From Liolophura sinensis (Eukaryota > Mollusca > Polyplacophora > Chitonida > Chitonidae), in contig NC_088302.1 of assembly GCF_032854445.1 (NCBI RefSeq), positions 25,557,788 to 25,621,787 on the forward strand: a stretch of 64,000 nucleotides of DNA. Direction: 5' to 3'. The notes beneath the pieces were generated by a model. The model saw only the letters and a program-made list of their open reading frames with translations. It had not been told where the DNA came from and did no database searches. Positions 1 to 63,135 of the stretch are shown here, piece by piece; position 1 is the first letter of the stretch, and each line of letters begins with the position of its first letter. The translations under genes and the position numbers were made by a program.

Positions 1-2816
1 GAGCTCAAGCAAAATATGTCACTTGAAAAACAGCTTAACTTAAGGTGGAATACAGTATCGGTACAGCTTTAAAGTCGATAAACTACACGCATTGGATCAG
101 TCCTAAGTAAGACAAGGTAGAGTCCGAGACAACTTTAATACCTGTACATCATGCGATTGATATGTTAACAGTACAATAAAACTATCTTGTCGTGAAGCCA
201 TTTTAACTATGACTGTGTTTGAAAAAGTTAAAATTCTAAAACTTATCACTTGTCTAATAATATTTGGTATGACATCTCTCACAATATCATAATCAACATA
301 CTTTGGTTTATACATGACTTGTTTCTAACAGACCGTTATGTCATTTAAAAACTAAAAAAGACTCAGTAAGTACGTGCCACCTTTAAGTACTGTTAAACAA
401 TGTCTTCATCTAGAGCCAACGGTTTGAAAGTGAATTATAACTCGTCAAAAAACACAAATGTTAACACTACCTCTCGTTTCCAAAAAACATTAACCATAAG
501 TTATTATACAGACAGGAAGAGACATCTTTCAACTTTGGTCTTCCATGTGTGCCAACCTACATGTAATTAATCATATACCACAATTAGTCTAGTAGAGCTG
601 GTTTAGAATAAGCATGTCATAAAGATTGTTTTTTGTGTTGTTTTTATTTTTTTGCATTGTATATTGATGAAAGTACAGGTTGGCTTGAGTAGCATCAGAG
701 AGCCTGGTACATGTAGACTGTACCAGGTGTTTTCCATTAATATTCAGTAATTACATATGATAGAAAACACAAATATATGCAAGCTTTAACATCAACATGC
801 AAAGAAACCACTGTAACTGTTTACGACTGACTGATTTATACATGTAGTTTATTAACAGGGATCTAAGCATTTCGTGGTCTCACAATACACACTTGATTCC
901 AGATGTTTGAGTGAATAACACGTTAAATCTGTCACACCTTCTTTATGATTCTTAATATTACATATGTATACATCTGCTGAGAAGTAAAAAACAACATATG
1001 GTATGTTAAAAAGACCTTCTTCTGGAATGTTAGCAAATATACATGTACATACATGTATTATGACCTAATTTACTTGAATCTTAGTATGCTTCAGATTATA
1101 CTTAAGTACAAGTGCATATCATCAGATCTACAGATTAGCTGAAGGGTAGACAACTCTTTACCTTAGCACGAGAAATTGCACACACTGGCATTGCAACATT
1201 ATCAATCCCGAGCAAATAACTGCTGCATGAAACGGATCTATTCTCTATGACTGGCAAATAAAAAATTCATCTCAAACAAATCGAACACTGCTAATCCACA
1301 AAATAAACGTTTGTCTTCAAAAGGAAACTAATTTTGGGCAGTGCTAATTGCAATAATGTTTCCAGGGATTTTTTTTCTGGGGACATGCATGTGTATTTAG
1401 GCAACAAGTCTCTAACTTGATATTATCCTTATAATTCCAGCATTGCCGCACCAGAGTCAACATCTTCTGGTTACTACCATTGGTAGTAACACTACTTTCA
1501 CCCATCCAAAATGACTGTCTAGCATGGAAACTTCAGCGCAATAGCTGGTGCTTACAGACCACAGGGCTTGTTTCCATCATTGTCAATGCAGTTGGGACAG
1601 TGGAATGTATGAAAAACACACGATTATGGCACAAATGACTTTAAAACAGGCATTGTGTTTTCGAGTTAAATGCACAGCTCTCGAAATACAGTGCATAATG
1701 AGCTGTAAGAAATACTGCTGCACAGACATTAATATAACGACCAGTTCCTCTGTTGCTCGTTTATCTGACAACAATCATACCAACCAATGACCCACACTCA
1801 AGTTACAGAGTTGCAACAAATCACCTACACTCAAGTTACAGAGTTGCGACCAATGACCCACGCTCAGGTTACAGAGTTGCAACAAATGACCTACACTCAG
1901 GTTACAGAGTTGCAACAAATCACCTACACTCAGGTTACAGAGTTGCAACAAATGACCTACACTCAAGTTACAGAGTTGCAACCAATGACCTACACTCAGG
2001 TTACAGAGTTGCAACCAATGACCTACACTCAGGTTACAGAGTTGCAACAAATCACCTACACTCAAGTTACAGACTTGCAACAAATGACCTACACTCAAGT
2101 CAGAGTTGCAACCAATAACCTACACTCAGGTTACAGAGTTGCAACCAATGACCTACACTCAAGTTACAGGGTTGCAACCAATGACCTACACTCAAGTTAC
2201 AGAGTTGCAACAAATGACCTACTCTCAGGTTACAGAGTTGCAACAAATGACCTATGCTCAGGTTACAGAGTTGCAACAAATGACTTACACTCAAGTTACA
2301 GAGTTGCAACAAATGACCTACACTCAAGTTACAGAGTTGCGACCAATGACCTACGCTCAGGTTACAGAGTTGCAACAAATGACCTACACTCAGGTTACAG
2401 AGTTGCAACAAATGACCTACACTCAGGTTACAGAGTTGCAACAAATGATCTACACTCAGGTTACAGAGTTGCAACAAATGACCTACACTCAAGTTACAGA
2501 GTTGCGACCAATGACCTACGCTCAGGTTACAGAGTTGCAACAAATGACCTACACTCAGGTTACAGAGTTGCAACAAATGACCTACACTCAGGTTACAGAG
2601 TTGCAACCAATGACCTACTCTGGTTACAGAGTTGCATGGGGTTGAGGTCAGCTCAGGCCACTCAGCAAGACCCTATATTTTCAAAGAGACTAAACAAGAG
2701 CTGACTAAACAGCTGTTGCAATACTGGCACAATACCACAATAAACAATTATAAATATATATTTCTGTTTTGTTTGTGAACTTTTTTTTCTCATGTTGATG
2801 ATATTCCAGCAGACTA
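1..2816. other. Homer 3' flank / possible 3' UTR
   Basis: No convincing coding exon. On the minus strand the nearest AATAAA signals after the Homer stop are near 853-848 and 647-642. If one of these is used, the 33-bp array would be part of the 3' UTR. The first ~50 bases resemble copies near 31105 and 54995 (dispersed repeat). Confidence 0.5.
1783..2637. repeat. 33-bp minisatellite, about 26 copies
   Basis: The unit combines CTCAGGTTACAGAGTTGCAA with CAAATGACCTACA (33 bp). Copies differ by a few alternating variants (caggtt/caagtt, caacaaat/caaccaat/cgaccaat). One unit near 2098-2101 has lost 2 bp. Because 33 is divisible by 3 and the unit lacks stops in several frames, both strands show long but meaningless open frames. 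Confidence 0.95.
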
Positions 2817-3014
2817 TTAACTTTTGGTGTCCTCTTTTAAAGAGGAAATAATCTGCTCATGTAGAATTTTCATGTCAGACATTTTGTTTCCTAGCTGTGT
2901 GTGCAGGTGAACGAGGTGTTGAGTTTCCTTCTGCTTTTGGCTCATTGACTCTGCCTGCTGGCGCTCCAATTCTTTCACTCGCACATTCAGGTTCTGGTTT
3001 TCTTTGTCCATGTT
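2817..3014 (-). CDS. Homer: Homer exon 9 (C-terminal coiled coil, stop)
   Basis: 198 nt, 65 codons plus TAA at 2819-2817. Starts [19 protein letters not shown] and ends SSLKEDTKS. Leu/Val/Ile heptads continue to about 5 residues from the end, matching the tetramerising zipper of long Homers. The acceptor CTCTGTGTTTGCAG is contiguous with the edge of a 22-bp minisatellite. I see no AATAAA on the minus strand between the stop and the 33-bp array. Confidence 0.94.
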   Translation of the reverse strand, partial: NMDKENQNLNVRVKELERQQAESMSQKQKETQHLVHLHTQLGNKMSDMKILHEQIISSLKEDTKS

Positions 3015-6000
3015 CTGCAAACACAGAGACAACATATATATTAACACATGTACATATATACAACGCAGAGATAATGCATGTACAACACAGAGATAACATG
3101 TGTACAACACAAATGTAACACATGTACAACATAGAGGTAATGCATGTACAACACAGAGGTAACACACGTATAACACAGGCGTAACACATGTACAACACAG
3201 AGGTAACGCATGTACAACACAGATAACACGTACACAACACACAGGTAGCACATCTACAACACAGAGGTAATTCATATACAGCACAGAAATAACACATGTA
3301 CAACACAGAGGTAACATATGAACAACACAGAGATAACACATGTACAACACAGAGGTAACACATGTACAACACAGAGGTAGCACATGTACAACACAGAGAT
3401 AACACATGTACAACACAGAGGCAACACATGTACAACACAGAGGTAGCACATGTACAACACAGAGGTAACACATGTACAACACAGAAGTAACACAGAGGTA
3501 ACACATGTACAACACAGAGATACACATGTACAACATAGGAAATAGGTCCACATAAATCTGCAAAATGGATATACATGTACATGTGCATGTACCTCATACG
3601 GTAAAGGCATTTATTTCCAACTCCAAGCTAAGATAACTTGAAACACCATATACAATTTGACCTTAGGTGTTCCAGGGACTTTCCCATACTGGTGACAAAG
3701 TGTACTTTATTACCAATGTCTTCTCTCAATCACCACCAGGTATATCAATAGCTGAGAACAAGTACTTACTGATTCACAATATTACATGCTACAGACGTTA
3801 AGACATGTATGCAAGGTCTACTGCTTTTATACAACTCTCTCCACGTTTTCTAAATACTCTGGTAACAAGATGTATGGACAGGAGCCACACAACCCAACAA
3901 GAACATACTACACTCCTGCCTCCCCAAAAGCCCCATCTTCACAAATGTAACATCTTAGAATACAGCATATACGTACATGTTAAACACATGGTTACATTTC
4001 GCACAAACTGGAGCTTTAAGCATTATTAAGAACACTTGAATTACTAATCAATATACATGTTGATACCCAAAGAATGAAAGAAAGTGTTTTGGGGCACAAC
4101 TACAAGGAAGCAAATGACAAACGTGACTATTAAAACATACTGTGTGTATGTGCATATGTACATATATATATATATATACATATCACCAAGCTTTCAAAGT
4201 ACAATTGTTGTGAATATTTAAACAGGGTTTACAAATACAATGTTCCATCGGGAGCTACATGTATTTCAACTACAGAATGATGATCTACTGTATAAAGTCC
4301 TGTGCAAAATTCAATGTGGAGAATGGTGTTCCTCAGGAAAGCAAGACAGATACATGAATGCATCAGGGAACATGACATAACCAGCACATGCTACAAAAAA
4401 ACTTAGCTTTTGGTGACCACCGTTTGGTTACTGGCCACAGCCCACACATGGCACCTTACAGTAGTATTGACAGCACCTCTCAATTACAGCCTTCTTAAAA
4501 TAAAAGAATCACTGGCAATCAGCCAGAGGCAAATCTAACTGATACCATCATCTTGTATAGCCCACTGAGTCAGAAATACCTTGTGAGTACTAATCAGCTA
4601 TTCATATTTTTTGTGCCCTCTCTGCATATATACTTCATTAACTGCTTGTCGGTAAACACTACCAAGTTGTGCTCTGCCCTTCATTTTTGAACAACCAACA
4701 TGTTTCCGATGTTTCTGCTTTCTCTGTTTGTCTGCTTTTTGTCTCTACATGGTCTATATATTGTAAACGCCACATTTTATTCTATGCAGTGGTCATTCTG
4801 GTGATGGAGTCCGTAGTACTCTGAAAGCTCAGTCATATATATACATACAGTATGTTTCAAATGGTCATAGACACGTAAACTACAGGTCTCTTCTTCGTTT
4901 CATAATAGACGTGTTTATCACATGCTGAGCTAATGTGCAACTGGTCTGTCAACTCCAGTTGCACATTAGCTTTGGAAAAGCCAAATGCATAATTTAAGTT
5001 AACTCATATATATTTAGCTATTTGATTGGTTTTCAATGCTGTTCTTTTTAACAGATTTTTTTACCCCATGCCTTCATAACCAATTAAGTTTATGTGTGGA
5101 GAAACAGGAAAATTTTTTTTAAACCATCTTTGCTTGATACCCGAGGAATCTCCTGACATCCAGCAATAGCTGGATTTTTGCCTGTAACCTCATTGGTGAA
5201 GGACCGAGTGGCTGCAATATGAACTGTTTTTTTTTTTATCCACCTAAGGAAGTTAGAATCCCCCAAATACATTGTTAAACACTTAATACTCTGAGAGTTT
5301 AACGCAGTAGCTGTAAATCACATAACGTTAGAGTACAGCATATACGTGTAGAGTTGTGTAAGTAACATGAAGACAGCCTGTTTTAGTGTAGTGGCATGTC
5401 AGCACATGGAATTCAGACATTCAAAGCCATTAACATAAGACTTTCCTTGTCCACGTATCCTTGAGCACAAGATTAACAAAACAAGAAACCTGTCCACCTA
5501 CCTGCTCAGATAGCAGCCATTGCTGTTACAGAGAAAAACTCCAATTGTTATAATGAACATGTACATGCATGGCTGTGCAGTTCTGTCTTTAGCTTTGGTT
5601 TTTAACTCCTCTATAATAATATATGTACGTTTTATCAAACAGATGCTAATGCGCATGTATGTGTACGCAATGCTAGTCCAAATTTTTGTACCTTGTTGCA
5701 GTATTACAAGAAACATGCACACTTTAATATTATCTGATCTTTCTTTGGACAATCAAAACGCACACTCACTTGAAGTTAGTCCTCAATGCTGACAACTAAT
5801 AATGGTTTTATCTCCTCTTGGATAATTTAGTGCTACTTTAGGTGATTCTCACGCGGTGGGTTTTTATATATCTTTAAAGCTTTACCCTTAATTTGTAAAA
5901 TTTGACAAACTCAAACATTTAGTGTTAGTGTATACGTTACAAATGTATAGCACCAGTGTTACACTCTTTGAAATGCAATCTGATACAATAGATCAACACG

Positions 6001-36735: not shown

Positions 36736-39214
36736 AGAAGGAATCTGAGTAACGCCTGAAGATCCTGCTTGCGTGTAGGCAAGGTAAAACTGTCGTTGAA
36801 TGAGCCTCTAAAGATGCTAGTACGGACGAGGCAAAGCAGTCACTTACATGGCCCCTGAAGATCCTGCTTGCATGTAGACAAGGTAAAACTGTCGCTGAAA
36901 GAGCCCCTAAAGATGGTCATACGGACGAGGTAAAGCAGTCACTTACATGGCCCTTAAAGATTCTGCTTGCATGCTGACAAGGTAAAGCAGTCACAGACTG
37001 ACCCCTTAAAGATCCTGCATACGGACAAGGTGAGAACACTCACCATACTAAACCCCTAAAGATCCTGCATACGGACAAGGTAAAACCACTCACCATACTG
37101 AACCCCTAAAGATCCTGCATACGGGCAAGGTAAAACAGTCACTGACTGAGCTCCTAAAGATCCTGCATATGGACAAGGTAAAACAGTCACCATACTGAAC
37201 CCCTAAAGATCCTGCATACGGGCAAGGTAAAGCAGTCACAGACTGACCCCTTAAAGATCCTGCATACGGACAAGGTAAAACAGTCACCATACTGAACCCC
37301 TAAAGATCCTGCATACGGGCAAGGTAAAACAGTCACTGACTGAGCCCCTAAAGATCCTGCATATGGACAAGGTAAAAACACTCACCATACTGAACCCCTA
37401 AAGATTCTGCATACGGGCAAGGTAAAACAGTCACCATACTGAACCCCTAAAGATCCTGTATGTGGACAAGGTAAAAACACTCACCATACTGAACCCCTAA
37501 AGATCCTGCATACGGGCAAGGTAAAACAGTCACTGACTGAGTCCCTAAAGATCCTGCATATGGACAAGGTAAAACAGTCACCATACGGAACCCCTAAAGA
37601 TCCTGCATATGGACAAGGTAAAACACTCACCATACTGAACCCCTAAAGATCCTGCATATGGGCAAGGTAAAACAGTCACTGACTGAGCCCCTAAAGATCC
37701 TGCATATGGACAAGGTAAAAACACTCACCATACTGAACCCCTAAAGATTCTGCATATGGACAAGGTAAAACAGTTACTGACTCAGCCCCTAAAGATCCTG
37801 CATATGGACAAGGTAAAAACACTCACCATACTGAACCCCTAAAGATCCTGCATACGGACAAGGTAAAACAGTCACTGACTGAGCCCCTAAAGATCCTGTA
37901 TATGGACAAGGTAAAAACACTCACCATACTGAACCCCTAAAGATTCTGCATATGGACAAGGTAAAACAGTCACTGACTGAGCCCCTAAAGATCCTGCATA
38001 TGGACAAGGTAAAAACACTCACCATACTGAACCCCTAAAGATCCTGCATACGGACAAGGTAAAGCAGTCACTGACTGAGCCCCTAAAGATCCTGCATATG
38101 GACAAGGTAAAACAGTCACCATACGGAACCCCTAAAGATCCTGCATACGGGCAAGATAAAACAGTCAATGACTGAGCCCCTAAAGATCCTGCATATGGAC
38201 AAGGTAAAAACACTCACCATACTGAACCCCTAAAGATCCTGCATACGGGCAAGGTAAAACAGTCACTGACTGAGCCCCTAAAGATCCTGCATATGGACAA
38301 GGTAAAAACACTCACCATACTGAACCCCTAAAGATCCTGCATACGGGCAAGGTAAAACAGTCACTGACTGAGCCCCTAAAGATCCTGTATATGGACAAGG
38401 TAAAAACACTCACCATACGGAACCCCTAAAGATCCTGCATACGGGCAAGGTAAAACAGTCACTAACTGAGCCCCTAAAGATCCTGCATACGGACAAGGTA
38501 AAACAGTCACCATACTGAACCCCTAAAAATCCTGCATACGGGCAAGGTAAAACAGTCACTGACTGAGCCCCTAAAGATCCTGCATGTGGACAAGGTAAAA
38601 ACACTCACCATACTGAACCCCTAAAGATCCTGCATATAGACAAGGTAAAACAGTCACTGACTGAGCCCCTAAAGATCCTGCATACGGACAAGGTAAAAAC
38701 ACTCACCATACTGAACCCCTAAAGATCCTGCATACGGGCAAGGTAAAACAGTCACTGACTGAGCCCCTAAAGATCCTGCATATGGACAAGGTAAAACAGT
38801 CACCATACTGAACCCCTAAAGATCCTGCATATGGACAAGGTAAAAACACTCACCATACGGAACCCCTAAAGATCCTGCATACGGGCAAGGTAAAACAGTC
38901 ACTGACTGAGCCCCTAAAGATCCTGCATACGGACAAGGTAAAACAGTCACCATACTGAACCCCTAAAGATCCTGCATACGGGCAAGGTAAAACAGTCACT
39001 GACTGAGCCCCTAAAGATCCTGCATGTGGACAAGGTAAAAACACTCACCATACTGAACCCCTAAAGATTCTGCATACGGGCAAGGTAAAACAGTCACCAT
39101 ACTGAACCCCTAAAGATCCTGCATACGGACAAGGTAAAACAGTCACTGACTGAGCCCCTAAAGATCCTGCATATGGACAAGGTAAAAACACTCACCATAC
39201 TGAACCCCTAAAGA

Positions 39215-41960
39215 TCCTGCATATGGACAAGGTAAAAACACTCACCATACTGAACCCCTAAAGATCCTGCATACGGGCAAGGTAAAACAGTCACTGACTG
39301 AGCCCCTAAAGATCCTGCATGTGGACAAGGTAAAACAGTCACCATACTGAACCCCTAAAGATCCTGCATACGGGCAAGGTAAAACAGTCACTGACTGAGC
39401 CCCTAAAGATCCTGTATATGGACAAGGTAAAACACTCACCATACTGAACCCCTAAAGATCCTGCATACGGGCAAGGTAAAACAGTCACTGACTGAGCCCC
39501 TAAAGATCCTGCATATGGACAAGGTAAAAACACTCACCATACTGAACCCCTAAAGATCCTGCATACGGGCAAGGTAAAACATTCACTAACTGAGCCCCTA
39601 AAGATCCTGCAAACGGACAAGGTAAAACAGTCACCATACTGAACCCCTAAAGATCCTGCATACGGGCAAGGTAAAACAGTCACTGACTGAGCCCCTAAAG
39701 ATCCTGCATGTGGACAAGGTAAAAACACTCACCATACTGAACCCCTAAAGATCCTGCATATGGACAAGGTAAAACAGTCACTGACTGAGCCCCTAAAGAT
39801 CCTGCATACGGACAAGGTAAAAACACTCACCATACTGAACCCCTAAAGATCCTGCATACGGGCAAGGTAAAACAGTCACTGACTGAGCCCCTAAAGATCC
39901 TGCATATGGACAAGGTAAAACAGTCACCATACTGAACCCCTAAAGATCCTGCATATGGACAAGGTAAAAACACTCACCATACGGAACCCCTAAAGATCCT
40001 GCATACGGGCAAGGTAAAACAGTCACTGACTGAGCCCCTAAAGATCCTGCATACGGACAAGGTAAAACAGTCACCATACTGAACCCCTAAAGATCCTGCA
40101 TACGGGCAAGGTAAAACAGTCACTGACTGAGCCCCTAAAGATCCTGCATGTGGACAAGGTAAAACCACTCACCATACTGAACCCCTAAAGATCCTGCATA
40201 CGGGCAAGGTAAAACAGTCACTGACTGAGCCCCTAAAGATCCTGTATATGGACAAGGTAAAAACACTCACCATACTGAACCCCTAAAGATTCTGCATACG
40301 GGCAAGGTAAAACAGTGACCATACTGAACCCCTAAAGATCCTGCATACGGGCAAGGTAAAACAGTCACTGACTGAGCCCCTAAAGATCCTGCATATGGAC
40401 AAGGTAAAAACACTCACCATACTGAACCCCTAAAGATCCTGCATACGGACAAGGTAAAACAGTCACTGACTGAGCCCCTAAAGATCCTGTATATGGACAA
40501 GGTAAAAACACTCACCATACGGAACCCCTAAAGATCCTGCATACGGGCAAGGTAAAACAGTCACTGACTGAGCCCCTAAAGATCCTGCATGTGGACAAGG
40601 TAAAACAGTCACCATACTGAACCCCTAAAGATCCTGCATACGGGCAAGGTAAAACAGTCACTGACTGAGCCCCTAAAGATCCTGTATATGGACAAGGTAA
40701 AACACTCACCATACTGAACCCCTAAAGATCCTGCATACGGGCAAGGTAAAACAGTCACTGACTGAGCCCCTAAAGATCCTGCATATGGACAAGGTAAAAA
40801 CACTCACCATACTGAACCCCTAAAGATCCTGCATACGGGCAAGGTAAAACATTCACTAACTGAGCCCCTAAAGATCCTGCATACGGACAAGGTAAAACAG
40901 TCACCATACTGAACCCCTAAAGATCCTGCATACGGGCAAGGTAAAACAGTCACTGACTGAGCCCCTAAAGATCCTGCATGTGGACAAGGTAAAAACACTC
41001 ACCATACTGAACCCCTAAAGATCCTGCATATGGACAAGGTAAAACAGTCACTGACTGAGCCCCTAAAGATCCTGCATACGGACAAGGTAAAAACACTCAC
41101 CATACTGAACCCCTAAAGATCCTGCATACGGGCAAGGTAAAACAGTCACTGACTGAGCCCCTAAAGATCCTGCATATGGACAAGGTAAAACAGTCACCAT
41201 ACTGAACCCCTAAAGATCCTGCATATGGACAAGGTAAAAACACTCACCATACGGAACCCCTAAAGATCCTGCATACGGGCAAGGTAAAACAGTCACTGAC
41301 TGAGCCCCTAAAGATCCTGCATACGGACAAGGTAAAACAGTCACCATACTGAACCCCTAAAGATCCTGCATACGGGCAAGGTAAAACAGTCACTGACTGA
41401 GCCCCTAAAGATCCTGCATGTGGACAAGGTAAAACCACTCACCATACTGAACCCCTAAAGATCCTGCATACGGGCAAGGTAAAACAGTCACTGACTGAGC
41501 CCCTAAAGATCCTGTATATGGACAAGGTAAAAACACTCACCATACTGAACCCCTAAAGATTCTGCATACGGGCAAGGTAAAACAGTCACCATACTGAACC
41601 CCTAAAGATCCTGCATACGGGCAAGGTAAAACAGTCACTGACTGAGCCCCTAAAGATCCTGCATATGGACAAGGTAAAAACACTCACCATACTGAACCCC
41701 TAAAGATCCTGCATACGGACAAGGTAAAACAGTCAGTGACTGAGCCCCTAAAGATCCTGTATATGGACAAGGTAAAAACACTCACCATACGGAACCCCTA
41801 AAGATCCTGCATACGGGCAAGGTAAAACAGTCACTGACTGAGCCCCTAAAGATCCTGCATGTGGACAAGGTAAAACAGTCACCATACTGAACCCCTAAAG
41901 ATCCTGCATACGGGCAAGGTAAAACAGTCACAGACTGAGCCCCTAAAGATCCTGCATATG
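39215..41960. repeat. 1270-bp higher-order repeat within the 49-bp array
   Basis: The pattern of unit variants recurs exactly 1270 bp apart (e.g. 39339/40609, 39534/40804, 39974/41244), with only occasional single-base differences (for instance near 39611 versus 40881). Two full copies and a partial third (about 41755-41960). Confidence 0.85.
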
Positions 41961-42553
41961 GACAAGGTAAAAACACTCACCATACTGAACCCCTAAAGAT
42001 CCTGCATACGGGCAAGGTAAAACAGTCACTGACTGAGCCCCTAAAGATCCTGTATATGGACAAGGTAAAACAGTCACCATACGGAACCCCTAAAGATCCT
42101 GCATACGGACAAGGTAAAGCAGTCACTGACATGGCCCCTAAAAACACTGCAATCGAAAAAGGTATAAAAGCAGTCAATGACTGAGTCGCCCCAGGTACTG
42201 CGCATATCTGGGCATGGCATATTTGTGACAGAGATAAAACCTTCCCAATTTCTATCGTTATATTCCATCTGGAGTTTCAAACTTGGATGTAAACAATATA
42301 AAGAAGTCAAATAACTGGGCCCTTAAAAGTATTGTATACAGACAGTTAAGTTCTGGAATCAACAGATTGAGTCATAATTTCAGCACAATGACGGCACAGA
42401 CAATTGTTACTGACTTCAAGGGGGCCCTACAGGCACTACAGTACTCAAATACGGACAATTATACAGCAATCACGCACTATCTACACATACAATATAATGT
42501 GAAGTGGGCCCTTACTGTTGCGATCTGCACGAACAAGTACGTAGCATATATCC

Positions 42554-52600: not shown

Positions 52601-55600
52601 AGTTTCACATTTCTAGCTAAGTGTACCATAGTTCTCGCGTTACAGGCCTTTGAAATTGCATAACTGAGAAAATGTTTTTTGACCATATGTCAAAAAGATA
52701 GGCAAAATCTGAAAGCAGATTCGGAATTAACTTTGCCAAATAAACCAGAATACATGAAAACATTATCAAAATAAGACACTTTTTATGAAGTCATAACATC
52801 CACCAATGGCTAGCTTCCAAAGCTGTTAATGAATATCCCAAGATTTCTTCAAACTTAGTTTAACTGTGATCACTCTACAAGTACATCAGATGTCAAAGGA
52901 ATCTGTTCATTGGCTCTTAAGAAGATTTTTAAAGGTTTTGATCAAAATCCAAGATGGCCACCATGTCACGTGACCAAAGGTAATCAATAACAGCCAAAAT
53001 TTGCCTCGTAACCTTGCTCCTAAAATCACCAAATTTCAACAACATCAAATGAAAACTTTTCTTTTTGCGACTCTTAAAGCTTTCAAGAAACGGGAAGAAT
53101 AATAATAATAAAAATCGGAACTATTTCAATTGGTTTCCCAGCACAGAGTGCTGGGCCAAGTGATAAAACCTTGAAAATCATCTGGTTTATTTTTGTGGGA
53201 GATGTGGATTATGCTGTTAGTTTGTACTGTTGAACACATTGACATGATGTGAAAGCTGAGTTGTGTGTACTGAGCGCTGACATCATTGAGCTCTGGAGAT
53301 TCTCATAACTCGTGTTGTTTCTTGTTTTTAGTTTGATGTATTTAAAACTGGCACATGCAAACTGAATCTGTGCATGTACATCTTATATTTTGCAGGTTCG
53401 GGCACACCTGACAGTGGGAAAGGGGGACGCAAGAGGAAAGGCTTCAGCGGCAGAGAGTAAGGAAGTCTGGCCAGGGGTCAGCAGACATCCTTGTGCATTA
53501 AGCCCAAACATGGTTAACATAACCCACAATCTGTCTGTGAAAAAGTCGTCACTGCTAAATTTCACATGTAAATTACACAAAGTTCGCCATAGAAAAAGTC
53601 TGTCAATAGTCCTCACTTGAGCTGAGGAGCATGTTCCAAACAGCGCTGGCAAAGTTTAGATAATTTCACTTCCATTCGAACAAACATCCTTTTCCGGGTT
53701 GTCCTCTATTTCAAATATAAACATCTCTGTCCGTGGTGGTCTAACTAGGAGTGGAAGTGTGATGGGAATTGAGTGAATGTAAATATTTCAAGTATCTGAT
53801 TTCTTCAAACTGATGTGTTTATAGAACTTTGGCATTACTGGTATTATTTTCTGTGCGTGTTCATTTTGTTATTTCTGTAATGTTTTTTTTCTTTCAGTGT
53901 TTTAATAGAAAATGTTTTAATTGCAACTTGATTACTGTAAAGTTTACTTTTTATTTTGTGCGGATAGACTCACCATGCTTATACTTACCGTTTGGTACAT
54001 GTACAGGAAGTATGCTTTATTAATCTAGAAAAAAACAGCACCTGTACATGTTTTATGGCATTGTCGATGAAGGAAAAGGAATAAGAATGTGATGTTAGCC
54101 TTCTATAAGCCAGTCTAAATATACAGAATTTTTGATTATTCTTATGATCTGCAAAAAGCTATAGTAAAGGAACCTGTGCTGTATTTCACCTAAATTTTGG
54201 CCTGTATAAATTCACTTTCAGAAGCACACATTAGGCCTTAAAATGATACTGCTGATGCCAATGCTTAAGCTTTTCTGGTAAGAAATGAGTCAAACTTCAC
54301 AAAAAAATGATGCTTCTGATGCCTTTTCTGGTAAGAAATGAGTCAAACTTCACCAAAAAAATGATGCTGCTGATGCCATTGCTTAAGCTTTCCTGGTAAG
54401 AAATGAGTCAAACTTCACCAAAAAAATGATGCTGCTGATGCCATTGCTTAAGCTTTCCTGGTAAGAAATGAGTCAAACTTCACCAAAAAAATGATGCTGC
54501 TGATGCCATTGCTTAAGCTTTCCTGGTAAGAAATGAATCAGACTTCACCAAAAAATTGATGCTGCTGATGCCAGTGCTTAAGCTTTTCTGGTAAGAAATG
54601 AGTCAGACTTCACCAAAAACAGGATGCTGCTGATGCCATTGCTTAAGCTTTTCTGGTAAGAAATGAGTCAAACTTCACAAAAAAATGATGCTTCTGATGC
54701 CTTTTCTGGTAAGAAATGAGTCAAACTTCACCAAAAAAATGATGCTGCTGATGCCATTGCTTAAGCTTTTCTGGTAAGAAATGAGTCAAACTTCACAAAA
54801 AAAATGATGCTTCTGATGCTTTTTCTGGTAAGAAATGAGTCAAACTTAACAAAAAAATGATACTGCTGATGCCAATGCTTGAGCTTTTCTGGTAAGAAAT
54901 GAATCAAACTTCACCAAAAAAACCAAAAAAAAAAAAACAAAGAAAGCAGAAAATCCCCTCTTGACTGGCCTTACAAGTTGGACGAATCAGTTCGAATCAA
55001 GCAAAATGTGTCACTTGAAAAAGCTAAACTTTAGGTGAAATACATGTACAGCATAGTGTACATTCAGTTGAAACTATAAACCAAGGTTACATACTACATG
55101 TGTGCCTGTATTTGTGACTTTACAGTTCTGATGATGATGACAGTCAATCAGGGGCTTTTCCTCCTTCCCAGGAACAAGCTGACAAGGAAAGATTTGCCAG
55201 GTTAGTCTGACACTCAAGTTACGTGTAGAATTGTGAAAATCACAAATTTGTATCCATACATGCAGGGATTCATACAGGTCCAAATTTTTACAATGAGGAA
55301 CTCGAAATTGATTTTTTTTTTTGTGGTCCAGGTTGAGTTTATTTATATTTTAAATAATGACTATAACCTGGTATTGAGTTTAATTCCGCTTTAGCGACAG
55401 GTAATTTTGTGAGCCTGAAAGTATATTATGATATACTGGTATATATACATATGGGAGAGAAAGCTTAATTTCATTTGAGGTCCATTTCTGATTATGATTT
55501 TGTTGTTGGTACATACATATACGTAAGTATATTATCCTCATCGTTGATATACATTGTATAATAAAACAGTTATAAACCATGGTGATGCATGTTCAGTTGT

Positions 55601-58600
55601 TGGTTGTTGTAATAAAGGAAAGAAAGGAACTAACAAACATATCAAAAGTAAAAATACTTCAAATACAGTGATAAATTAAGGCTCTTCCTGCTCAGAGGCA
55701 CATATATATAATGAAACAGTTATAAAGCATGCATGTTCAGTCGTTGGTTGGTATAAAGATTTGAAGAAAGAAAGGAACTAAGAAATATTACATAAAAATA
55801 CAAACATAAACAATGAACATAAACAGGCCTACAGACACAAAGCTTATTCTGATCATAGGTATATACTGTAAATATTTATTATTCGCTGGAATTTATTTTT
55901 GCGGATTTACCTCAAAGATGGATTCACGGGAATTGATTGTCGCGTAATTAATCAAGGAAATACTGAAGAAGAAAAATTCTTGAAACTGTTTAATTTTCCG
56001 TGTTATAATATGGCCGAAATTACTCAAACACATCAAACAGGCATTATCAATTAAGGGTGGCTATAATCCTCTTTTTGTTTCCTGCGGTGTCACTAATCCT
56101 CATAATCTGGATCAGTGATTAAAACAACAGGGGAAAGATTATCACTATGTAAGAAGATGACATTCACACCAACTGTTAGCTCTATTCAAGAGGTGTCATT
56201 TGTTTTCGCATCGGCCTTTTACTGGTGATTGAGTACTTTTAATCAACTGGCAAAGTGACCTGTTACCTTGTCACCTTGAGCAGTTCAAAGTAAACCATGT
56301 CAATTCACCCTTACCGGAGCCAGTCGTTCAGGCAGTCAAGCAACACGATTAGTTTGGGATTGCTCTCGGTTTTAATCATCCCCTGTAGCTAGTCAAAAAC
56401 CGCTAACATTGTAGCTGTCAAGCGGCCATTACGTTGTTGTATACAGTTCATAATTTGTTAGAAGCTCACTCATTGGCCCACTGGGATAGACACACAGCCA
56501 ATGGGATAGCATGTATCAAAGCGACATTCACTGGAAGCCAGCGCGTGTTGTATCAACTTTTTTTTTCTCACTTTCCTGGCATGCCGAAGATTGATCAAAA
56601 TGAATACAAATGTGTAAAAGTTTGGATACATTTGAAGGCTAATTCTAATGTAATTACAGCCAATACACGCATGACCACATCGGCTTTTCAAGGATGCAGC
56701 CGTTGGTGATTGAAGTCAACCGCTCATCGCTGCGCATATATTTTTGAATGCAATTCATTTTTTATCCCAAAATTTGAGTATTTGTACCAGAAACACTCAA
56801 AATTGAGTTTAAGTTTTTAACTCAATTTTATCACCAAATATCGGGGGTCTAAAATTGACGAGTACGAATCCCTGACATGTAATGCTACAATAACATACCT
56901 CTCCCTCATTCTCTTCAAATCATTCTTTTACATATTTCAGTTCTGACAGAAACACCAGATGTACTATGAAAAAGTCTGTATAAAATTATGTAGTCTACAT
57001 GTCTCGATTATATTCCTCTTTATTTTTCTTTCTTTCTTTCTTTTTTTGAGGGAGAGATGGGTGGGTGCCGTAAGAGAATTTGACATTGTTAATAGTTTAG
57101 GCTACTGATATCTGTGTATGGATGATCAGGTGAATCTGATGTCACACATGCCATGTCCGGCTCACTGTTTATCAATGGAGGTCATTCTTTTGTTCGCGTA
57201 TGCCTGTACAAGTACATGGCTATTTATGTGCATTCTGTGCCTATTTAAGTGTGGGTGAAGTCATTTCTGACATCAAAAGAGCCTGCTTGTATCATACATA
57301 AAGCTGTTCATAAATACATTCATCATAACCAGAAGCAAGCGAGCAGACTGTTTTCTCACTGAGAACCAGCCTCTAGTTACATGTGCTAAAGCCACTTTCC
57401 ATTCATGTGTACATTGTAATTTAGATGTTTGGAAAGCAGTTTATCTGGGAAATTGTAGATGATAAATTAAAAGGTGTACACTGTGTGAGTTTGTGGCTAT
57501 TGTGACCTAGATTTGTAAACAATGTCCTGGTTGTTGAAGAAAACCCATTCTCAAGGAGTTCATAAAGCAGAGTTATTAAAGGAAGAAACTACTTGTACAG
57601 GATTTAAAATGAATTTAGCATTATTGAAAAAAGCATTATGTCTGTTAAATTTTTAAATTTTTAAAATTTTTTTTCGACATTGATTTTGCTCTCATGTTTT
57701 TCAATTTTCTAATCTTTAGTTGTAGTCTGCTATTTTCAGTTTTGAGTTTGTGGCTCCCGCGTACATGTATTTGATTTCACAGGGGGCTTGTGGGGTTCCA
57801 ACCAAGAGGATTTATAACCCAGCCACATAGTGTGTGCCCCCTACTACATTACAAGATCTCGAGATTTATCATATCCTACATCTCCCTTGTCATACTTGTA
57901 TGCTTTTGTTTGGCATTATAAAAATCATCCTCGTTTTATGCATGGAAATATAGTCAGAGTAGTAGTAACGTTTGCTTTTCATGTAAATGTTAGTTTTTCT
58001 TCAGGCTTTATTGTTTAGTGTTTTACATGGAGAAGTGAAAGTGGTTGGAAAATGTTTTAATAAAACACTGAGATAGATATTCAGGACCGAGTTGCTCATG
58101 ATAAATGCAGGGACCCTTTGTGGTTAGCGCACCAGCACAGCGCAGTGACGCAGGAGCCTCTCACCAATGTGGTTGCTGTGAGTTCAAGTCATGCTGGCTT
58201 CCTCTTTGTCCGTCTGTTGTAAGGTGTGCCACCAACTTGCAGATGGTTGTGAGCTTCCACCATAATGCTGACCGTAGTCGTATAAAGTGAAATATTCTTG
58301 AGTACGGCGTAAAGCATCAGTGGAATAAATACAGAAATTGAGAAATGTACATGTAATATAGTAATGGTATGGCCGTAAATAGTGTGGACTGACGGGCACC
58401 ATTTTGTAACTTTGAAGGGAAAGTCACTGTGAGATAGAACGGAGGCGGAGAAACAAGATGACCTTGTACATTAACGAGCTGTGTGACATGGTGCCTACGT
58501 GTAGTACTCTGGCGCGCAAACCAGACAAACTCACCATCCTTCGAATGGCTGTCTCCCACATGAAGACCCTTCGAGGTAGGTGGGTGTGGCTGCTCCCCTT

Positions 58601-61600
58601 CCCGTGGGGGAGTTGGGGGGGATGGGTAAGGCCAGCTAGAAGTCCGTCTAGGTTAGGGGTTAGGCAACTGCATGTACATGTCTGTTGCGTCCCAAGTCCA
58701 CACCAGACGTGTCTGACTGTTCCCATTTTGTAAATTTAAGGGAGAGTCACTGTGAAATCGAGAGGAGACGGCGCAACAAGATGGCGGCCAATATTAACGA
58801 GCTATGTGACATGGTGCCTGCATGTAGTACCCTAGCCAGAAAACCTGACAAACTGACAATTCTAAGAATGGCTGTCTCTCACATGAAGACTCTGCGAGGT
58901 GAGTATAGCTGATAGACTTCCCATGGTTATTTGGTGACGGCCCCTTAATTGTCCCTTCCCATTACCACACCCTTCCTGAACCCAGACTGCGCATTGCTGC
59001 AAGTCTCTCCCTTAATCTGATCGTCTGTACATGCAGTTCTTGACCCCCTTCCTGGGGAAACTTTGTTGTATTTGTACAGTCATTGTTGCTATATATACAT
59101 GCACACCTTGTTTTTTTTAGTTGTAATAATAGATGAGACATTTTATGTGTTATATCATAATTGTATTTGCCATAAGTACATGTACACTTGCACGCATCAT
59201 TTAAATATTAGCGGAACTGGGTCAATGTTAACGTCAGGGTGTACAGTGATTGTGTATATCTATCATGCTTAAATGTGAGATTCTGATAAAAAAAAAAAAA
59301 CAGAAACAAAACAGACTGACTGCTCCAAACATAACAGACAATCTTTTTGTCAAATAGTCTGTTTTCACATTTTATACCAGGTGTATATTGTAGAGTACAT
59401 GTATAGTTGTGTAAGTACTGTGTTTATATTGTTCTGAAATGACGGGGGTAGCGAGCTTTTTTTGATGTTCATGATTGGCTGCAGGAATCATCATCTTTAC
59501 ATCTGATGCTTCGCTCTCTACATTCGTACTCTCTACATCACTGGCACCACTAGCAAATTTTGAACAGAAAAATTTTGAACAACGCCGAAGTCACTGGGTT
59601 CACCGTGATGACGCATGAAGTGATATCAGAAAACACAAAAAATCCGTCTCGACCTTTGTTTGTAATAATACACATATAATACACATGCCTTCTCTTTATC
59701 TGAAGTACATACAGCCTGATTCTAATGAAAACGTGTCAATTAATTGATGAATGCTGATTAAATAGTTCGAAGCAACGGCACAATTGATGAGGCTAAATAA
59801 GCTTTCATGTGTCTCTCGGACTCCGAAGTTCAAGCTTGTCAATTGGTGGCAGTGATGTAAAGGGAGTGTACAAATAGAGACGGGCACCTGCACTGTAAGG
59901 AGTAAGTGCAGTTAACTCTGTACATGTCCATGTCTTAAAAAAAGTGTAGAAATACACAGTAAAATTAAATTATGTATATGTGAATCCATGTAAGGTAGCA
60001 CAGTTGTATACTATTGTTTTTCTTGTGTACTTGTGTGCGCATAAATGTAAACTCATTTCTGTTTGCATTGAAATCTGTGTTTCCTATACATGTACTTATG
60101 TGAACGCCATGGTTTACATGTACTTATGTCAACACTATGGTTTACATGTACTTATGTGAACGCGATGGTTTACATGTACTTACATGAATGCTATGGTTTA
60201 CACGTACTCATGTGAACGCTATGATTTACATGTACTTATGTGAACGCTATGGTTTACGTGTACTTATGTGAACGCTATGGTTTACGTGTACTTATGTGAA
60301 CCCTTTGGTATATAACTCCTTTAACGTCTGTTTTAGGCACCGGAAACACAGGGGCAGATGGATCCTACAAACCATCGTTTCTAACAGATCAAGAACTCAA
60401 ACATCTTATTTTGGAGGTAAATCAATTCACCATTTTGTTGTGTTGGTCATTTTATTGTGTTCATCATTTATCCAAAGCAGAACTTCTTTCAATGTTTGAG
60501 CCCGGTCTCTATAGAAGTCACAGTCAACATAGAAATGTCGGCTGACTTATCATTAACAGCTTTATAACACCAGCACCTGCTACTTTCGGCTAGACTTTAG
60601 CCTCATGTGTTTTAACTGTCATGCAGCCACTTGATCTGGTATCTACATACATGTACTAAAACTACCAATAGAACAATAAATGGCTCCAAGACAGGTTATT
60701 CCCTTAGAGCCATTAGTCTTCTTGGAGTCCATGTCCTGCACATTTCTGAAAGGAGCTTACCCTATTTCCCAGACCTTTTTGGCAGGTGAAAGAAAACTTT
60801 TCAGTGCAATTTATGCACATTTTAATATTTTTTTTTAAATTTGATTTTTGAGACAAAAGTACATGGGTTTGTTTGGCCAGTTTCAGGGCTTTGCAAAAAG
60901 TACAATTTTATCAATCAACACCAAATAATGCCTTCAGAATATGCTTGAGTATGCACCTTGCAAAGATGCAAGAATGTTGAAGACTTACAGTAATATATCG
61001 ATGTTTGTGATTTCTCTGTCTACAGGCAGCTGATGGGTTCTTGTTTGTGGTGCAATGTGACACAGGGCGGGTGATTTACGTCTCAGACTCCGTCACTCCT
61101 GTGCTCAATCAGTCTCAGGTGAGTTACCTCCCTTCCACCATGTGAACTTTTGGAAATTACGCACTAAAATGTGTTTTTATGCCTATGTTTTTAATGCCTA
61201 GGATAATCTGACTGTAAGGATGTGTTATGTGTGCAATAAATTCCGTTTTACATGATTTTTTTTTTAAAGAAAAATCAAGAGCATCTAGTTGCTCAATACA
61301 AATTTTTCGTTTTATGTTTACATGCACATGGCTATGTTAAAATAATCTGTTGACATGTTTGAAATCATATACTGTTTGGTGTTTGTGGAGTCTTACTTGT
61401 TAGTAACATACTGCATAAGTCTGACTGGTTCAGTAACTCACTGTATGATTTTGTTGCAGTCTGGCTGATTTTGTGACACACTGTATGATTTTGTTGCAAT
61501 TTGACTGGTTTGGTAACACGCACTATGATTTTGTTATAGTCTAAGTGTAGCATACTGTGGTATTGTTACAGTCTGACTGACTTGTAAAACGCTTTCTGAT

Positions 61601-62737
61601 TTTGTTTGTTTGGTTTGGTAACACTATGATTGTGTTGCAGTCTGACTTGTTTTGTAACACGCTGTGTGGTTTTGCTGCAGCCTGACTGGTTTGGTAACAC
61701 ACTGTATGATCTTGATGCAGTGTGACTGGTTTTGTGACTCACTATGGTTTTGTTGTAGTCTGACTGGTTTGGTAACACACTGTATGATTTTGATGCAGTC
61801 TGGCTGGCTTTGTAACACACTGATTTTTTTGCTGTCTGACTGGTTTGGTAACACACTGTATGATCTTGATGCAGTCTGATTGGTTTGGTAACACACTGTA
61901 TGATTTTGTTGCAGTCTGACTGGTTTGGTAATACACTGTATGATTTGGTTCACCCGGATGACATAGAGAAAGTCCGTGAACAACTGTCCACCACAGAATC
62001 TCAGAACACAGGACGAATACTTGATCTGAAAAGTAAGTACATGTATGAATGACTGCTGCCTGCAGTTGACAGTACTTATCATTCTGCACCCTGCCCTTCA
62101 CTTGAGGGGTCTTAAGATGTACAGCTCAGAGAAGAAGTTTAAATAAATTACAAATTGTTTTTGATGAGTCCATTGGTGAGAATCGCCAAAGACCCATTAT
62201 AGCGGCATTAAACCTCTTAGTGAAACCTGGGTAAGTAGCCCACCTAAGTACTCAAGGAGAACTCAGTACTGGGCATCAAGAAATAAACTGTGTGTGTTAT
62301 GGTTAAGTATTAGCTTTATGCATGTTATCATGCTGGCTTTGTCTTTAACATTCTCGGTATTCATAGACACAAAATAGGCATGAAATCTTGAGTTGATCCG
62401 CAAGTTCAGTTCCCACTTGACCTGATAAACAGATAGGTTTCTGGGTGAGGGGAGATAACTGTGGGTCTGTGACGTAGTTCAGTATCTGTCACTAGTTAAC
62501 TCCCTTGTTATAAGTTTCAAGAAGTTTTTACCTCGTAACAATGTGATTATGAAACAAAAAGATGGAGAAGCCTATGAGTTGAGCTTACTGACATTGAACT
62601 ACAGTAGCTTGTTGTGACGTGTCACGGTTTGTGGAAAATTTTCCGCGATTGTTACAGTGTCGTATCTATATTTTAAAGGCTGGGATACGTATATTTTGTT
62701 GTTTAGTTTACTCTGGTCTGGGCATTGTTGTTAGGCA

Positions 62738-62793
<56 letters not shown>

Positions 62794-63135
62794 TGAAACA
62801 AGATGCATGTGATTTTAAAAAAAAGAAAAAGAGAGAAATATGAAATAAAATATATAAGTGGTGCCCTCCCTTAGGTGATTTTGATGTTAGTTTAGCAAGT
62901 CTTAGAAAGATCTTAAAACAGTTGGTCACATCAATAATTATGACACCATGGAACAAATTTCACTTTCACTACGGTAAAAATGCTGCAGGCAGATTGTCCC
63001 TACCATGGAGGGAACACTATGCTGCTAGTTACTGCATTCTGTTTGAAGGTACATTGTCTACAAATCAACAGACTGCTTCACTAACCTCTACTCTGTTTCT
63101 TTCAGCTGGAACTGTTAAAAAAGAGGGTCATCAAT
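43646..63135 (+). CDS. ARNT: ARNT (HIF-1beta) bHLH-PAS transcription factor, 5' part
   Basis: ARNT is the nuclear class II bHLH-PAS partner that dimerises with HIF-alpha, AhR, SIM and trachealess-type factors and binds E-box/HRE cores. Exons 1-3, one of two exon 4 copies, and exons 5-8 join in phase to 217 codons. There is a basic Lys/Arg and acidic N-terminus ([15 protein letters not shown]), then [15 protein letters not shown] leading into the bHLH (residues ~59-111), [20 protein letters not shown], and PAS-A from ~125 ([53 protein letters not shown]). Residues H61, E65 and R69 correspond to the DNA-contacting His-Glu-Arg of human ARNT. The gene runs off the window; the last intron starts at 63136. 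Confidence 0.96.
44755..44815 (-). mobile_element. SINE 3'-tail fragment
   Basis: TTACACCATACTCAAGTATA and AAAACACCAATCAAATCAAT: short relics of the family-1 3' end. Confidence 0.45.
48778..49043 (-). mobile_element. tRNA-SINE family 1 with target-site duplication
   Basis: Full-length reverse copy ending ...AACCTACTGAGCCACGGAGG. Flanked by TGTATGCTATAAA / TGTATACTATAAA (48778-48790, 49031-49043). Confidence 0.93.
50365..50410 (-). mobile_element. SINE 3'-tail fragment
   Basis: TTAATTTATTTGATTGATGT and TTTACACTATACTCC: tail only. Confidence 0.45.
52540..53165. mobile_element. Possible dispersed repeat of unknown class
   Basis: A block ending GAATAATAATAATAAAAATC, GGAACTATTTCAATTGG and CAGCACAGAGTGCTGGG. 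The (AAT)n stretch followed by a small palindrome (CAGCACAGAGTGCTG) looks like the 3' edge of a mobile element, but no coding or terminal repeats are visible. Confidence 0.3.
53396..53456 (+). CDS. ARNT: ARNT exon 2 (basic region before the bHLH)
   Basis: 61 nt after TATTTTGCAG. Encodes [20 protein letters not shown] and two bases of Asp, donor GA|GTAAGG. GGRKRK is a likely nuclear localisation signal. Confidence 0.88.
54236..54925. repeat. 65-bp minisatellite with embedded 5' splice-site motif, 11 copies
   Basis: Unit ATGATGCTGCTGATGCCATT, GCTTAAGCTTTCCTGGTAAG, AAATGAGTCAAACTTCACCA plus an A-run. Some units lack the ATTGCTTAAGC segment (51-53 bp). Each of the 11 copies has CTG|GTAAGAAATG. 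Lies in ARNT intron 2, 200 bp before exon 3. Confidence 0.93.
55126..55200 (+). CDS. ARNT: ARNT exon 3
   Basis: 75 nt after GTGACTTTACAG. Encodes [20 protein letters not shown], then KERFA plus AG of Arg. Matches the acidic stretch and the (A)DKER(F/L)AR run directly before the bHLH in human ARNT. Donor AG|GTTAGT; ends in phase 2. Confidence 0.93.
55201..58417. other. ARNT intron 3
   Basis: Contains a diverged tandem duplication (about 55560-55830, TAAAACAGTTATAAACCATG and GGAACTAACAAACA-like units). There is a repeat-poor stretch (55860-56720) rich in homeobox-like TAATTA/GATTA words, and a SINE (58107-58335) ending about 80 bp before exon 4a. Confidence 0.6.
58107..58335 (+). mobile_element. 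tRNA-SINE family 1, shortened
   Basis: GGACCCTTTGTGGTTAGCGC head, GAGTTCAAGTCATGCTGG, GAAATATTCTTGAGTACGGC, AATAAATACAG tail, with internal deletions. Sits 80 bp upstream of the exon 4a acceptor. Confidence 0.85.
58418..58575 (+). CDS. ARNT: ARNT exon 4a (bHLH, alternative copy 1)
   Basis: 158 nt. Acceptor TTTGTAACTTTGAAG, donor CGAG|GTAGGT. Encodes the complete basic helix-loop-helix: [14 protein letters not shown], then [16 protein letters not shown], then the [20 protein letters not shown] helix 2. It has no stop, and both boundaries are in the same phases as exon 4b. Its T-Y and PTCS residues match human ARNT better than 4b. With 4b skipped it joins exon 5 in frame; used together with 4b it causes a frameshift and stop. 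Inferred to be one member of a mutually exclusive pair. Confidence 0.87.
58576..58740. other. 165-nt intron between the duplicated bHLH exons
   Basis: Its last ~30 nt (CTGACTGTTCCCATTTTGTA, AATTTAAG) are homologous to the 30 nt before exon 4a, so the duplication included the acceptor region. It contains a G-rich stretch (GTGGGGGAGTTGGGGGGGAT) that could be a splicing-control element. Confidence 0.8.
58741..58898 (+). CDS. ARNT: ARNT exon 4b (bHLH, alternative copy 2)
   Basis: 158 nt, acceptor TTTTGTAAATTTAAG, donor CGAG|GTGAGT. Encodes the bHLH with [30 protein letters not shown] and the same helix 2 as 4a. It differs from 4a only at residues 73-75 (TLY to AAN) and 85 (T to A), while 21 further codons differ synonymously. 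The DNA-contact triad H61/E65/R69 is unchanged. Its donor is closer to consensus than that of 4a. Confidence 0.93.
58899..60336. other. ARNT intron 4
   Basis: About 1.4 kb, no exon seen. Apart from the 28-bp array at its 3' end there is a moderately unique stretch at 59440-59890 of unknown role. Confidence 0.6.
60084..60312. repeat. 28-bp minisatellite, about 8 copies, just before ARNT exon 5
   Basis: Unit CTATGGTTTACATGTACTTA plus TGTGAACG. The last copy ends about 25 bp from the exon 5 acceptor. Confidence 0.93.
60337..60416 (+). CDS. ARNT: ARNT exon 5
   Basis: 80 nt after ACGTCTGTTTTAG, donor GAG|GTAAAT. Encodes [20 protein letters not shown] then LKHLILE, almost identical to the human segment between bHLH and PAS-A. 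Ends in phase 0. Confidence 0.96.
60417..61025. other. ARNT intron 5
   Basis: 609 nt of intron, no feature seen. Confidence 0.7.
61026..61118 (+). CDS. ARNT: ARNT exon 6 (PAS-A start)
   Basis: 93 nt, 31 codons: [20 protein letters not shown] then [11 protein letters not shown]. Acceptor TGTCTACAG, donor CAG|GTGAGT. Phase 0 at both ends. Confidence 0.97.
61385..61914. repeat. ~40-bp minisatellite made of exon 7's own splice acceptor and start, about 13 copies
   Basis: Unit TGCAGTCTGACTGGTTTGGT, AACACACTGTATGATTTTGT (40 bp). The array runs straight into exon 7, whose first ~35 bases (TCTGACTGGTTTGGTAATAC, ACTGTATGATTTGGTT) are the last unit. Several upstream units keep the T-rich tract and CAG (61456-61459, 61637-61640, 61677-61680, 61717-61720, 61795-61798, 61871-61874); others have decayed to CAA or TAG. 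Confidence 0.95.
61915..62032 (+). CDS. ARNT: ARNT exon 7 (PAS-A)
   Basis: 118 nt encoding [39 protein letters not shown] and one further base. Strongly matches human SEWFGSTLYDQVHPDD...TGRILDLK. The acceptor ATTTTGTTGCAG is the last of a ladder of near-identical repeats; donor A|GTAAGT. Confidence 0.96.
62033..63105. other. ARNT intron 7
   Basis: About 1.07 kb with a (TA)n microsatellite (62738-62788). No exon seen. Confidence 0.7.
62738..62788. repeat. TA microsatellite
   Basis: Pure (TA)n of about 50 bp. Confidence 0.95.
63106..63135 (+). CDS. ARNT: ARNT exon 8 (last exon in the window)
   Basis: 30 nt after CTGTTTCTTTCAG, donor T|GTGAGT. Encodes [10 protein letters not shown] plus one base, matching human KTGTVKKEGQQ. 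The gene continues past the window. Confidence 0.93.

Follow-up and report, generated by a model that had tools for sequence, protein, structure and literature searches.

The single ARNT gene found in the chiton Liolophura sinensis carries two complete versions of the exon for its basic helix-loop-helix (bHLH) domain, here called exons 4a and 4b, and it is that pair which concerns us. It lies in the window, by which is meant the whole 64,000-nucleotide (nt) forward-strand stretch of NC_088302.1 that was analysed (C8:25557788-25621787 in a genome searched as 632 contigs and 609,464,459 bases). The assembly was published under the name Liolophura japonica (PMC11068029), which its authors have since changed to L. 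sinensis (PMC12441733).

Which gene is involved? The gene model comprises exon 3, 4a or 4b, then exons 5, 6 and 7, a 30-nt micro-exon and exons 8-11, and with 4a or with 4b the reading frame is open for 397 residues through PAS-B. Pfam domains are in order and above cut-off (HLH 25-77, PAS 100-202, PAS_11 294-394), the HLH scores of the two forms, 49.0 and 47.5 bits, both being over the Pfam cut-off. Among solved structures the best relative is ARNT at 627 bits, with ARNT2 at 600 and the best BMAL1 chain at 368 (4a form). Identity as ARNT, one of the class II bHLH-PAS proteins, is supported, BMAL being the more distant. Two weak probes found no coding exons upstream of exon 3, and Rfam at its gathering threshold gave no match in 40000-64000. 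A protein search of the whole genome yielded six matches, three of them being exons 4a, 4b and 5, with each bHLH exon copy matched once and both on C8; the three outside the gene are one on C6 at 65% identity, presumably BMAL/cycle, and two at 37% and 41% elsewhere on C8. A single ARNT gene was thus found despite the partial genome duplication reported for the species (PMC12005716).

As the original prediction for this DNA had described, the two exons are each 158 nt long, stand 165 nt apart, and have the same phases with intact AG acceptors and GT donors. They differ at 32 of 158 bases and, again as predicted, in 25 of 52 codons, 21 synonymously and four with a change of residue, leaving 48 of 52 residues identical. 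In human ARNT numbering the changes from 4a to 4b are T106A, L107A, Y108N and T118A (first numbered as residues 73-75 and T85A), the human protein having T, A, Y and T at 106, 107, 108 and 118.

How strong is the constraint on the pair? The comparison of non-synonymous (dN) with synonymous (dS) divergence that had been suggested along with the prediction gave, by NG86, a dN of 0.064 and a dS, near saturation, of 1.82, hence a dN/dS of 0.035 (bootstrap range 0.004-0.087; dS reached saturation in 425 of 2000 replicates), which is strong constraint. That dS points to a probably old duplication and yields no date. When 32 substitutions were placed at random, at least 13 amino-acid changes resulted in 5000 of 5000 trials and a stop codon in 3212, and no neutral trial (0/5000) had four or fewer changes. 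Across the three frames the amino-acid differences are 25, 4 and 24 of 52, and the conserved frame is the one in which either exon links exon 3 to exon 5. Because only that frame is conserved, frame-shifted double inclusion is excluded as a way of keeping 4b; the one-frame conservation fits single use of each exon, and an in-frame double product would fit too. The pair also shows what marks mutually exclusive tandem exons in PMC3228551: similar length, splice pattern and frame, no in-frame stop and a homologous protein. Most likely, both copies have long been retained through purifying selection and translated as alternatives, and the earlier argument that the excess of synonymous change speaks for long-kept function is borne out by the rate ratio, the random trials and the one-frame conservation.

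The likeness extends a little way into the introns. The last 30 intron nt before 4a and before 4b resemble each other (z 8.2, a level reached by 0 of 500 plain shuffles), and so do the first 30 nt that follow the exons (z 6.2), the stretches compared containing the AG and GT sites themselves; with the donor left out, positions +7 to +36 after the exons gave z 3.2 (5 of 500 shuffles), and farther from the exons there is no likeness between copies. Shared by the two conserved 3′ intron ends is CATTTTGTAA, which has two occurrences in 94 kb, both directly at 4a and 4b (Table 1). Scored with an approximate matrix, the acceptors of 4b and 4a are intact but weak, ranking last and third from last among the gene's 11, and the donor of 4b is second strongest of ten. 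The genome has at least 78 HLH matches (E up to 0.001), and of these 4a and 4b form the only same-strand pair less than 5 kb apart, the next pair being at 5.1 kb. Clusters of HLH matches were also seen at C13:29586213-29667249 (nine) and C10:21002033-21049166 (six).

Table 1. Features of the ARNT locus, in positions of the window; a slash marks an exon or donor border.
Feature	Position	Strand	Remarks
ARNT exon 3, upstream partner	55126..55200	+	25 residues; donor CAG/GTTAGT
3′ intron end before 4a, conserved	58389..58417	+	branch-like CTGAC, its A (58392) 25 nt from acceptor; CATTTTGTAA; AAG acceptor
Exon 4a, ARNT bHLH	58418..58575	+	helix-1 start TLY
Intron between 4a and 4b	58576..58740	+	165 nt; four G-runs in first 70 nt
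Overlapping second donor of 4a, +4	58580..58585	+	GTGGGT; arrangement GAG/GTAG/GTGGGT
3′ intron end before 4b, conserved	58713..58740	+	branch-like CTGAC, its A (58716) 24 nt from acceptor; CATTTTGTAA; AAG acceptor
Exon 4b, ARNT bHLH	58741..58898	+	helix-1 start AAN, plus T118A
TAG reached if 4a and 4b are joined via the annotated 4a donor	58833..58835	+	
ARNT exon 5	60337..60416	+	26 residues
ARNT exon 6, first part of PAS-A	61026..61118	+	stop 61031 when both bHLH exons are skipped
ARNT exon 7, PAS-A	61915..62032	+	
ARNT micro-exon 7b	63106..63135	+	30 nt; GTVKKEGHQ; donor picked because frame-keeping

The explanation we favour, with a probability of roughly 0.73, is an ancient tandem duplication of exon 4 in the single ARNT gene, with both copies used alternatively. 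Each mRNA would then have 4a or 4b, giving two ARNT proteins that differ at human 106-108, where TLY or AAN would open helix 1, and by T118A at the border of helix 1 and the loop. The choice between the exons would be made at weak, regulated acceptors. Joining 4a to 4b via the annotated donor leads to the stop at 58833 within 4b, and skipping both leads to the one at 61031, among the first bases of exon 6, the outcome predicted at the outset and found to hold for such simple products; both kinds of mRNA stop early and nonsense-mediated decay (NMD) is therefore expected to remove them, as is reported for U2AF1. For the protein this would mean that DNA affinity or the stability of helix 1 is subtly tuned, with no change in the dimer core or at the base-reading residues.

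Does the frame, as originally held, enforce the use of one exon or the other? Simple products of the annotated donor, with both exons or with neither, are indeed frame-shifted, and to that extent the claim is supported. Certain points nevertheless weigh against the favoured explanation, and one of them is the +4 donor of 4a, because of which the frame logic for exclusivity is incomplete. Splicing from that site would fuse 4a to 4b without a frameshift (junction 58579-58741), both exons being read in the conserved frame, to give an open product of 451 residues with two bHLH domains, and so in-frame double inclusion is predicted to be allowed. The rough matrix gives this donor 4.31, more than it gives five of the ten annotated ones, and a score of at least 4.3 is reached by 59 of 6066 GT sites in 94 kb; among the gene's ten donors, 4a alone has a positive-scoring +4 site. 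Another such point is the distance from the 4a donor to the 4b branch motif, 141 nt, which exceeds the steric limit of about 50 nt (PMC5740500, PMC7969005), so that double splicing is physically possible. In a human survey of mutually exclusive clusters, 60% hold exons of a length not divisible by three and 9% have a donor-branch distance below 50 (PMC5740500). A further adverse point is that 4b loses the human ARNT residue at 106, 108 and 118, where 4a retains it, and that pattern is compatible with some relaxation of 4b; at 107 it is 4a that differs from human ARNT, and 4b that matches.

Other devices by which exclusivity might be forced were considered and set aside. Steric exclusion by a distant branch point was rejected on the 141 nt and an AG-exclusion zone of 34 nt. 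For docking/selector RNA pairing among the three introns, 123, 13 and 116 of 200 dinucleotide shuffles were as good or better, the 13 of 200, which is borderline, belonging to the intervening intron paired with the upstream one. Pairing of the intervening with the downstream intron is strong when set against other places in 94 kb, its level being reached by 12 of 270 windows, and is discounted because the shuffles show that base composition accounts for the strength. An inverted repeat that would loop out 4b (58655-58678/59026-59049) was likewise dropped on base composition, and the fold of the intervening intron has no excess stability (z 0.18). Against U12/U2 incompatibility stands the appearance, by eye, of the three donors concerned (exon 3, 4a and 4b), which resemble normal GT sites of the U2 type; a TGCATG motif in the intervening intron was dropped, there being 78 copies in 94 kb. 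The four G-runs in the 70 nt after the 4a donor are a level reached by 6 of 2684 overlapping windows, their own included. No steric or RNA-pairing lock that forces exclusivity was found, and mutually exclusive use is what we infer from the sequence. That there are three ARNT proteins, with bHLH-4a, with bHLH-4b and with both in tandem before one PAS pair, we consider improbable; if it were true, choosing between donors 4 nt apart would be a frame switch between exclusive and joint use.

Could the pair serve chiefly to lower ARNT, with 4b (or 4a) mainly a poison exon whose early stop is delivered by regulated unproductive splicing, and the protein difference incidental? The early stops in both-included and both-skipped mRNAs, the weak acceptors and the want of a steric block to double inclusion agree with this, but coding-frame constraint on both copies, with 21 of 25 codon differences synonymous, is unexpected of an exon that only delivers a stop, and the proposal is unlikely. 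A little less probable is that just one copy works and the other is a little-used, slowly decaying relic. The alteration in 4b of three residues common to human ARNT and 4a would suit decay, as would an acceptor that is the weakest of the 11; yet 4b has no stop or frameshift, its branch-like motif and borders are conserved, its donor ranks second of ten, and dN/dS has an upper bound of 0.087 where random change to the same divergence brought many replacements and, in most trials, stops. As for an artefact in which haplotypes or paralogues were misplaced in tandem, there is one assembly only, but a difference of 32 in 158 exon bases is to be set against a heterozygosity of 1.24%, HiFi reads of mean length 8.3 kb at 14X should singly span a 0.5-kb pair (PMC11068029), and each copy was found once in the genome; it is barely credible.

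The original prediction had also proposed that the dimerisation surface is switched, so that 4a and 4b forms of ARNT would pick different partners (HIF-alpha, AhR, SIM). The changes do fall in helix 1 of the dimerising domain, and swapping the TCF3 exons 18a and 18b can matter. In our own alignment, in which H94, E98 and R102 are bHLH positions 5, 9 and 13, the changes are at positions 17, 18, 19 and 29, whereas the buried sites crucial for dimerisation and partner specificity are 16, 20, 23, 27, 53 and 54 (PMC3502508). All six of these are identical in 4a and 4b and the PAS domains are common to both forms; because the buried dimer positions are identical a switch of dimer or partner is unsupported, and we regard it as very improbable. 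The companion claim, that DNA-contact residues are unchanged, is likewise uncertain. Residues of human ARNT that touch DNA, from crystal structures or docking, are R91, H94, S95, E98, R99, R101, R102 and K128 (PMC8657931), and all are alike in the two exons, S95 being C in both. The doubt concerns position 17, a non-specific phosphate-backbone contact of bHLH proteins generally (PMC8431614). As ARNT contacts, T106, Y108 and T118 have no mention in the excerpt of PMC8657931, nor T106 and Y108 in that of PMC12774657. AlphaFold2, given the 52-residue peptides without an alignment, made both helix-loop-helix, with helix 1 at residues 3-24 and a mean pLDDT (predicted local distance difference test) of 78.5 for 4a and 78.6 for 4b; a short helix is at 28-32 in 4a and 26-32 in 4b, a difference given no weight. 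On a scale of helix propensity AAN is higher, at 0.65 as against 1.40 kcal/mol for TLY. From the positions of the changes we infer that they would tune how tightly DNA is bound or how stable helix 1 is, rather than decide which partner is chosen.

Repeats were also noticed near these exons. A dispersed element resembling a short interspersed nuclear element (SINE) occupies 58121-58340, ending 77 nt before exon 4a; it has at least 40 further matches, 39 at 74-82% identity and one a short piece, 40 of 3362 initial candidates having been scored. A 28-nt minisatellite of eight copies (60087-60309) ends just upstream of the exon 5 acceptor, and a tandem repeat with a period of 65/118 nt (54240-54922) lies shortly upstream of exon 3. 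The intron that precedes exon 7 is made of a tandem array, 13.9 copies of a 40-nt unit (61418-61950), in which the unit is the acceptor plus the first exon 7 bases (TTGTTGCAG running into TCTGACTGGTTTGGTAACAC), and by eye about nine decoy 3′ splice sites precede the true exon 7 acceptor. Farther off in the window are a long array at about 37100-42030, with a spacing mostly of about 98 nt or multiples of it as judged from repeated weak peptide matches, and, at 1738-3627, long open frames of short peptide repeats that are probably satellite DNA. Elsewhere in the assembly, the 108-kb contig C99 matches mitochondrial COX1 at seven places, all on the same strand and spaced by about 15.5 kb, and C632 (15.2 kb) looks like a single unit of that array; the mitochondrial gene order, we take it, fits the ancestral molluscan order.

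Why might alternative use of 4a and 4b matter? HIF-alpha, AhR, SIM and NPAS proteins, sensors of oxygen and of pollutants among them, all pair with ARNT, and because of that a switchable bHLH in ARNT could alter many pathways together, in an animal that is intertidal and exposed to low oxygen. With four residues changed outside the dimer core and the base-reading positions, the pair would be a natural experiment on the outer face of helix 1 in DNA binding by bHLH-PAS proteins. A search limited to open-access titles and abstract openings found no account of an ARNT gene whose bHLH exon can be swapped, which is weak evidence of novelty, and the word ARNT is absent from the human survey of mutually exclusive exons (PMC5740500).

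Tandem mutually exclusive exons are a well-known class (PMC3228551, PMC5740500). In one such pair, OGDH 4a/4b, the intervening intron is size-restricted and exclusivity is imposed by branch points that lie 25-41 nt from the donor (PMC7969005), a distance to be compared with the 141 nt of chiton ARNT. Human ARNT itself, in isoforms 1 and 3, is also alternatively spliced in its N-terminal part; there it is the 15 residues of an alternative exon 5 that are included or excluded and, unlike in the chiton, the bHLH is not swapped (PMC4905433). Closer in several respects is U2AF1, whose exons Ab and 3 are likewise duplicates, differing at only seven residues of which some lie in a helix, and in which mRNAs that carry both exons or lack both have stops and are reduced by NMD (PMC5224494). 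Most invertebrate tandem exon duplications of the U2AF1 kind engaged the upstream intron (PMC5224494), and the likeness of its 3′ end in the two copies of the chiton exon accords with that pattern, but U2AF1 is a splicing factor, its pair is conserved in vertebrates, and what is swapped is not a DNA-binding domain.

The remaining comparison is with TCF3 (E2A), a widely shared class A partner from a family without PAS domains, whose exons 18a and 18b encode the bHLH. Those tandem exons, which give E12 and E47, are used alternatively, and the choice shifts under hypoxia in breast cancer cells, with hnRNPH1 named as a regulator (PMC12585103); the intervening intron of the chiton pair is rich in G-runs, which may or may not be related. 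ARNT is another gene of another family, and in the chiton only 4 of 52 residues differ. Should the chiton pair be expressed, it would join TCF3 as another example of a bHLH swapped through tandem exons.

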